Source: Neoarius graeffei (taxonomy: Eukaryota > Chordata > Actinopteri > Siluriformes > Ariidae). From it: 64,000 nt of DNA. Positions within the stretch are counted from its first letter, which is position 1, and each line of letters begins with the position of its first letter. Of the stretch, positions 369 to 2,180 are shown in pieces. Under the pieces are notes generated by a model. The model ran no database searches, was not told the DNA's origin, and was given only the letters and a program-made list of their open reading frames with translations. The translations under genes were made by a program, and so were the position numbers. The DNA lies in the NCBI RefSeq assembly GCF_027579695.1, contig NC_083592.1, positions 30,833,961 to 30,897,960 on the forward strand. The letters run 5' to 3'.

Positions 369-989
369 CTGCAGCCTTGGAGGCCCTTCCTACAGTAGCA
401 TCAACTGTAGCTTCCTCAAAACCCTTCACAGATGCGTCCTCATTTTCAGTGATGGTATTGGTCAGTGCTTCTGTTTTCACTTCCCTTGAATTCTCAGTAG
501 GGGAGAGCGGGGTAAGATGAGCCAGGGGGTAAGATGAGCCACCCCCTGTTTCTAAGAAACAGTAAACAAATGTGACCATGTGACCACATTCAAAGGGGGC
601 CGGGACCATTTACTTACACTTGTGGCGAGGAGCACCACATGTCAAACTAGGTGAGGGACATATTTATAAAAATGTGTTTTTGTGCTTTCTAAGTCAATTC
701 CATGTTTGTCCACAGTGAAGATGATTTAGAGAAGACAAAAGTAGAATAATATTTAGACACATTAGGGTTAAGTTAGTGGCTTTCTAAGCTATGATATGAA
801 TGCTAATAAAAATAATTTTGATTAGCCTAATCCCCTTTATTAGCATTTTTCTACAAAATGGTGGCCATGGGGTAAGATGAGCCATTAGATGTGGGGCAAG
901 TTGAGCCACTGGCTCAACTTACCCCATTGGTGGCTGAGCTTACCCAATATGGATGACACTTAAGTTTTCACATTTACTGGTCATATATG

Positions 990-1071
<82 letters not shown>

Positions 1072-2180
1072 CATCAGATGAGGAAGACCAGTTGTTAGAT
1101 GTGGGGGATTATGTTGTGGCAAAATACACGGGGAAGAAGAAAGTGCATTTCTTCATTGGCCAGATAATCAAATTGGATGTCTTCGAAATAGAGGCAAGAT
1201 TTCTCAAAAGAAGCCGGTCATGCCATGGCTCTGCAAGAAAGCCAACCTTTGTCTTCAAAGAGAAAGATAAGGCTGTCCTGTCAAGACAGGATATTGTGAA
1301 AAAATTGCCCCACCCCTTTACTGTTGGGGGGACAGCACGGAGGGAGAGGCAAATGGTGTTCCCTTGCCATTTGAACGCTTGGAACATTGAATAATGATGA
1401 AATGATTGAATGATTGATGGAATGATTGCTGCATGTTTTAGCAATGTTTTAACCTACTGAAAGAAATAAGATTCTTTTGGCACTGTTCTACTGTTTTAGT
1501 AATTTCTATAATATAGTATATCTCTCATTCCCTCTCTAACCATCCCTCTTTCTATCTATCTACGCATATATCTCTCTCTATCCATCTATCTATCCCTCCC
1601 TATCCCATCTCGTTCTATCACCTCTCTCTTCATCTCCCCTTCTCTATGCAACGGCCCTATCCCCCACTTGATTGACTTGACTTGATTCATTGATTGCATT
1701 TCTAATAATAAAAGTTGTTTACTTTGTTAACCTAACATGTTTTGTGTTGGCTCAATTTACCCCACACAGTGGCTCATCTTACCCCGTGCATGGGGTAAGT
1801 TGAGCCACTTGACATTTTTTTTTCAAGAGGTAATATCACTCTAACCATAAGAGCTTATCAATTATGTTTTGCTCAGATAGTAACAGTACACTTTGAAATT
1901 TGGTATGGTGTGTAGACTGGAAGCAAAAATGGCTTTAACATGTAGTTATGATGAAAAATGTAAAAAGTGGCTCATCTTACCCCACTCTCCCCTATTCACA
2001 TCTCCAGTTGGACTGTCAATCCCGGAATCATCTGATAAACTGATTTCTTTCATCTTGTCGGCCACCGAGTCCATGATATTGTTTCCGATTAAAGAAGTCA
2101 TGCAGTTGCTGTTACTTTGTGCTCCGGAGTCTTGGAGTGCCTGCTTTTCTCTGAGATGGTGCTGAGTATCTTTTACAGTG
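369..2180 (-). CDS. Coding exon of an unidentified host gene, interrupted by a DNA transposon
   Basis: Read on the minus strand, a splice acceptor (gctag) precedes base 2180 and a donor (gcag/gtaaaa) follows base 369. If the transposon at 500-1992 and one TA copy are removed, the two halves join into one open frame of about 105 codons with no stop. The right half (2180-1995) ends in a serine- and aspartate-rich stretch with SDDSGIDSPTGD. The left half (497-369) continues in the same frame with NTENSREVKTEAL and ends at SKAAG. The product is acidic, low in hydrophobic residues and probably disordered; I do not recognise the gene. Phase fits a preceding small exon at 2315-2356. In this haplotype the exon carries 1495 extra bases with stops, so the allele is probably broken unless the insert is spliced out. 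It could alternatively belong to a duplicated or dead gene copy. Confidence 0.62.
500..1992. mobile_element. DNA transposon with GGGGAGAG ends, copy A (inside a coding exon)
   Basis: The 1493-bp element has inverted ends: it starts GGGGAGAGCGGGGTAAGATG and ends with nearly the reverse complement (one C/T difference in the first 20 bases). It is flanked by TA at 498-499 and 1993-1994. A second copy at 29129-30603 is almost identical, differing mainly in the length of an internal (TA)n tract. Inside are a (TA)n run (about 999-1069), a 108-codon ORF (1068-1394) and repeated copies of a 15-base motif. No transposase core is present, so it is non-autonomous. The TA target duplication points to the Tc1/mariner-pogo superfamily. 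Assignment to a pogo/Tigger-like family rests on the TSD and on the ORF resembling C-terminal tails I recall from fish transposon proteins; that is inference. Confidence 0.85.
1068..1394 (+). CDS. 108-aa ORF inside transposon copy A (likely C-terminal remnant of a transposon protein)
   Basis: The frame opens with ATG at the end of the (TA)n tract and reads [20 protein letters not shown], later HFFIGQI, and ends in [12 protein letters not shown] ... LNAWNIE, then stop. It looks like a small beta-rich domain (VGDYVVAKY, then FIGQII) of the kind found after DDE domains in some fish transposon proteins. No catalytic residues are present. The copy at 29687-30013 has the same length with only a few amino-acid changes, so the frame is kept open in both. 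The upstream exons are probably lost and replaced by the (TA)n run. Whether it is expressed is unknown. Confidence 0.5.

Follow-up and report, generated by a model that had tools for sequence, protein, structure and literature searches.

Probable recent DNA-transposon insertion in exon 2 of a tandemly triplicated acyl-CoA synthetase gene in Neoarius graeffei

Introduction

What becomes of a gene when a DNA transposon enters one of its coding exons while two sister genes stand nearby without the insertion? The question is raised by a 64,000-nucleotide stretch of the Neoarius graeffei genome (NCBI RefSeq assembly GCF_027579695.1, contig NC_083592.1, positions 30,833,961–30,897,960; hereafter the window, whose numbering is used for all positions given without a contig or locus label). 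An exonic insertion is in itself an ordinary event. Based on the analyses below, we consider it quite probable that a recent DNA-transposon insertion in exon 2 of one of three tandem genes has led to the likely loss of that copy's full-length product, with the sisters remaining functional. Filled and empty copies of the exon, with near flanks that are almost identical, lie ∼53 kb apart in one genome and offer a natural comparison: the transcripts of these copies in a single animal would reveal the effect of a fresh exonic transposon, whether decay, cryptic splicing or clean removal.

The interrupted exon and its reading frame

The second exon of the gene, an acyl-CoA synthetase gene which its sequence motifs suggest is ACSBG-like (bubblegum), lies on the minus strand in two parts: exon 2a (1995–2180), preceded by an acceptor AG ending at 2181, and exon 2b (369–499), followed by the donor CAG/GTAAAA at 368. 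When the parts were joined (2180–1995 plus 499–369), the resulting 317 nt were open in one of three frames, which reads GDVN/TENSREVK across the join. An earlier note on this DNA, made from the sequence alone, had claimed that removal of the element with one TA restores a single frame, that splice sites stand at both outer ends and that the insert carries stops in the exon frame, and all three claims held: the frame is as just described, the phases match with 2181 as the last acceptor base and 368 as the first donor base, and unspliced read-through would continue for 15 codons past GDVN before reaching a stop.

A probable first coding exon, MLISGPKLSNNLENNSD, was placed at 2315–2367 (minus strand). 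It leaves AG before the GTATGT at 2314, and the exon following exon 2 begins GC-GAA (by eye). The splice phases fit, because exon 1 leaves AG and the GC of exon 3 completes the G left at 369. The transcript joined without the element stays open from the ATG to the last base of exon 2, both the first exon and this ATG being inferred.

The inserted element and its family

The insert is a non-autonomous cut-and-paste DNA transposon of a multi-copy family, spanning 498–1994 (minus strand) when the TA duplications on both sides (498–499 and 1993–1994) are included; the element proper occupies 500–1992 (1,493 bp). Its left terminal inverted repeat (498–524, plus strand; end-to-end match and motif scan) and right terminal inverted repeat (1968–1994, minus strand) pair at 26 of 27 positions with the TA counted in, and the right repeat holds a donor-like GGG/GTAAGA at 1980 on the gene strand. 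With up to three mismatches permitted, the end motif was matched four times in the 64-kb window, twice by this element and twice by a second copy, and never in 100 shuffled sequences, which rules out a chance inverted repeat. Folded with an artificial spacer, the two ends form a 27-pair stem containing one G-U pair, for which the z-score is not a fair test.

Internally, the element contains an (AT)n microsatellite (997–1070), which varies from copy to copy, and an open reading frame of 108 amino acids (1068–1394, plus strand). This frame matched no family above the cut-off (Tudor_5, at E 0.068, fell below it), nor was any match found in PDB or NCBIfam. No stop interrupts any of the 150 scored matches to it (97–100% identity; best 150 of 791 candidates). 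The frame may derive from the tail of a transposase since lost, or may encode a separate product.

Among 40 scored of 871 genomic candidates, at least 37 near full-length copies in a single piece (the exon 2 copy counted) and three in two pieces were found. A second full-length copy within the window (29127–30605; 97.5% identical, TA at both ends) is absent from that scored list, so the copy number is a lower bound. All eight aligned copies, again counting that in exon 2, carry TA at each end and lie between differing flanks, and the length including both TAs ranged from 1,479 to 1,508 across nine distinct copies. Compared with six copies in the same orientation, and with the microsatellite set aside, the exon 2 element shows 4–7 differences in 1,424 positions; a seventh copy (L007), in opposite orientation, was left out of this comparison.

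The TA target duplication and terminal inverted repeats are consistent with the TA-targeting IS630-Tc1-mariner group, pogo included, as far as sequence features allow a class to be assigned. Elements of the pogo and Tc1/mariner type are described as having a TA target duplication and short inverted repeats of 40 bp or less (PMC7386202, PMC7325037), and the exon 2 element resembles them in both respects. Unlike them, this copy contains no DDE transposase, its only frame being the 108-residue one that lacks a family above the cut-off. A DDE_1 search of the genome for an autonomous partner gave 444 candidates, of which 150 were scored and 20 loci fetched with 1.5 kb flanks; the inverted-repeat core was found in none of these 20, a search which would miss ends lying farther out, and the 108-residue tail was not seen by eye in three DDE_1-locus frames. 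Two longer family frames (240 and 191 residues) were rejected as the source of an autonomous partner, their extra length coming only from other repeats that had inserted into the (AT)n stretch (by eye). Such nesting occurs in two copies (L045:3211–3610 and L046:2600–5000, by eye) and involves a SINE-like unit and a reverse-transcriptase-like LINE; the stretch looks like a landing place.

The host gene and its empty sister sites

The joined translation of the exons matches the AMP-binding domain (PF00501) over its full length (1–384 of 384, E 1.3e-71) and AMP-binding_C_3 (PF23562, E 1.2e-5). In the joined sequence the first of these matches starts at residue 164, downstream of the insertion; single exons match AMP-binding in order, each below the cut-off. 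Judged by its sequence, the interrupted gene encodes an acyl-CoA synthetase, and it belongs to a tandem array of three.

A whole-genome DNA search with the exon half 1995–2180 returned three candidates, all of them scored: the window itself and two further copies on the same contig and strand, copy A (C25:30744172–30744357, 100% identity) and copy B (C25:30783273–30783458, 99%), the three being spaced about 39 and 53 kb apart. In both of these other copies the insertion site is empty, with a single TA, and the exon reads straight across. A search with the exon peptide led to the same places, with A and B unbroken and the window copy in two pieces; a single further match, weak (E 7.55) and containing two stops, lay elsewhere. 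Precise excision of the element from both sister copies was considered as a less simple alternative. When Tc1/mariner excision is repaired through end joining, a footprint stays behind (PMC2874221), and none is seen at A or B; a single insertion is therefore simpler than two excisions.

Relatives of exon 3 were found at three places on this contig (C25; 96–100%), four on C10 (46–49%) and one on C2 (44%). Two separate ACSBG-like arrays were observed, one at C25:30.73–30.84 Mb with three copies and one at C10:87.14–87.28 Mb with at least four, and the C25 copies resemble each other most around exon 2. The downstream exons of the window copy were located in loci L012 and L013. Nine exon pieces besides exon 2 are present in all three C25 copies (joined-protein search, best 60 of 156 candidates), and stop counts agree across the copies in eight of the nine; exon 3 differs by an extra TAG in the longer match of copy B. 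Some pieces carry stops in all three copies; our reading is that the joined query extends into introns there. The joined-protein matches listed lack exon 4 and part of exon 6, both of which are open in the translated frames. The last exon of the interrupted gene was not found. Over the exons found, the interrupted copy otherwise looks intact, and the idea that it was already a pseudogene is not supported by them. In exon 3 (L012, about position 9500) it reads KISESGRG where copy B reads KMSESGLG; the Met of KMSESG, present in both sisters (copy A by eye), is thus Ile in the window copy, a possible internal start having been lost.

Predicted splicing of the element

The element could also be harmless, and this is the strongest of the alternatives considered, albeit an unlikely one. 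In that case most of it would be removed as a new intron, 60 (or 66) nt would stay in frame, and a working protein would gain 20–22 residues ahead of its catalytic domain. Splice sites were scored with approximate matrices of the Shapiro-Senapathy type, by which the native sites of exon 2 reach 75.8 (acceptor) and 81.0 (donor), and the sites linked to the element 82.4 (donor at 1980), 77.3 (junction acceptor at 493) and 83.9 (acceptor at 546). The predicted frame-keeping intron (546–1980, minus strand, 1,435 nt; scores 82.4/83.9) ranked first among the 44 frame-keeping pairs of 3,895 introns tried, followed by 1980–552, and its lower score exceeds both native sites. Dinucleotide shuffles of the element (n = 200) reached 82.4 twice and 75.8 ten times, with a median best of 67.8, and the ends that would be kept have constant lengths in all nine distinct copies despite the variation in total length.

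Several observations weigh against such rescue. The matrices are approximate and the 1980–546 pair was chosen after the sequence had been seen; when frame is disregarded, scores of 82.4 or more are reached by 15 of 3,961 pairs, and stronger sites exist within the element (acceptors of 94.4 at 1278 and 93.7 at 1917, and a donor of 88.3 at 922). The same donor paired with the junction acceptor gives a second predicted intron (493–1980, minus strand) that shifts the frame and then meets a stop, and the donor at 1980 lies within the 27-pair stem of the element ends, which could hide it. A hexamer resembling a polyadenylation signal occurs at 841 on the gene strand. In the opposite orientation at the real site, the best frame-keeping pair reaches 77.3, and the background per kb in the rest of the window is 0.75 for donors of this kind and 11 for acceptors scoring 77.2 or more.

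Inserted in turn at all 11 TAs that the exon contains, the element in its present orientation scored 82.4 through the same pair in every case; reversed, it gave 67.8–82.4, with 82.4 at two of the 11. These TAs span two codon phases, and the kept 60 nt, or 20 codons, are open in two of the three, the kept piece opening with a stop (TAG) in the third. It is conceivable, if doubtful, that the family carries, in this orientation, a ready-made, frame-neutral intron of 1.4 kb with its splice sites in element ends that the hairpin draws together, such that exonic insertions would be partly silent. If true, the family would represent a vertebrate DNA transposon of introner-like kind, and the tandem paralogues with and without it would form a natural experiment.

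Several other systems bear comparison. Exonic Tc1 is reportedly removed from C. elegans mRNA, and SOS splicing has been described; the exon 2 element likewise has pairing inverted ends within an exon, and its removal from mRNA may be possible. Introners were found in 5% of the species searched, and some of their families, where this could be judged, have terminal inverted repeats or target site duplications (PMC9860276), as does the exon 2 element. In Aureococcus, one introner family brings both splice sites with it and lengthens the transcript by 12 bp (PMC9860276), whereas the intron predicted here would be 1.4 kb long and leave 60 nt. For vertebrates, that source describes no pattern of introner gain (PMC9860276). 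In plants, Ds1 supplies donor and acceptor sites that alter host transcripts (PMC5432752); it differs in being an Ac/Ds element, and that account treats intronic elements and calls its results simulations.

Age of the insertion

In the flanks nearest the insertion (1–2313 minus the element), the window copy differs from copy B at 1 of 814 aligned bases, with four gap columns; the corresponding figure for copy A is 6 of 818. Toward exon 3 the differences are 6 of 400 (copy A) and 8 of 374 with 58 gap columns (copy B). Over 207 bases on the 5' side they number 24 (copy A, 154 gap columns) and 29 (copy B, 142 gap columns), the alignment of this side being unreliable. This patchwork of divergence suggests gene conversion around exon 2. 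Judged from the near-identical flanks of the empty sister sites and the few differences among element copies, the insertion is young. The description of a young transposon in a host coding exon is thus borne out by the single mismatch to copy B, by the 4–7 mismatches among element copies and by two empty sister sites; the earlier note had named a different sequence across position 498 in orthologs as something that would refute it, and in the two tandem paralogues, which cross that position with a single TA, the outcome favors the note.

The close match of the window copy to copy B in the near flanks would also be expected if the two were haplotypes assembled side by side, that is, filled and empty alleles of one locus. 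We regard this as improbable: the copies number three, at spacings of about 39 and 53 kb; seven amino-acid differences separate the window copy from copy B in exons 9–10 (by eye); about 8 kb separates exons 8 and 9 in copy B, against at most 1.3 kb in the window copy and copy A, with reverse-transcriptase-like frames between them in copy B (by eye); and the outer flanks diverge from copy B as given above, subject to the same gaps and unreliable 5' alignment.

Fate of the gene product

Under the preferred reading, a recent insertion with likely loss of the full-length product, a non-autonomous transposon from a multi-copy family with recent activity would have entered a TA in the second coding exon after the gene was duplicated, and probably also after the exon 2 region was homogenized. 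Unspliced or mis-spliced messages would stop in the element or soon after, ahead of the AMP-binding domain, and truncation before the catalytic domain is the most likely outcome predicted from the sequence. The interrupted copy would then yield little full-length protein, while two sister genes would keep the function; the presence of a three-copy tandem array thus changes the likely consequence of the insertion. As to the suggestion that the allele is probably a loss-of-function or altered-splicing one, splice-site scoring predicts introns of both kinds, frame-shifting and frame-keeping, and the frame-keeping pairs (44 of 3,895) count against plain loss.

An in-frame ATG in the element end (607–609, minus strand), ahead of exon 2b, also counts against plain loss. 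From it, or from farther downstream, a shortened ACSBG with a new N-terminus could start, for which there is an open frame (MVPAPFECGHM...LSP-TENSREVK) leading into exon 2b and an AMP-binding match that begins only downstream. We hold this to be very unlikely, as it would need a promoter in the element or reinitiation beyond the upstream ATGs, and the exon 3 Met of the sisters is Ile in the window copy. Skipping of exon 2 shifts the frame and is thereby ruled out as a rescue, and direct splicing of exon 1 to exon 2b or into the element was rejected, 2 of 122 acceptors keeping the frame and both being weak (66.1 and 63.2).

The insertion of Tol2 in the medaka tyrosinase gene is reportedly exonic. 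Tol2 belongs to a different superfamily from the exon 2 element and has a different target duplication. It is a hAT element that was discovered through a tyrosinase mutation of albino medaka (PMC2874221). The two cases are alike in that a DNA transposon inserted into a fish gene; unlike the albino case, the present one concerns a tandem gene whose sister copies lack the insertion.

Other features of the window

Four Tc1-like transposase remnants, each in two pieces, were observed at 4590–5619, 19712–20795, 27924–28923 and 32367–33185, the profile check covering the first of these alone. Frames with an immunoglobulin domain and a membrane span (36372–36752 and 41178–41612, minus strand) look by eye like embigin. 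Lastly, a tandem repeat at 37725–38089 is open over 115 codons in all six frames, one of which repeats a ten-residue unit.
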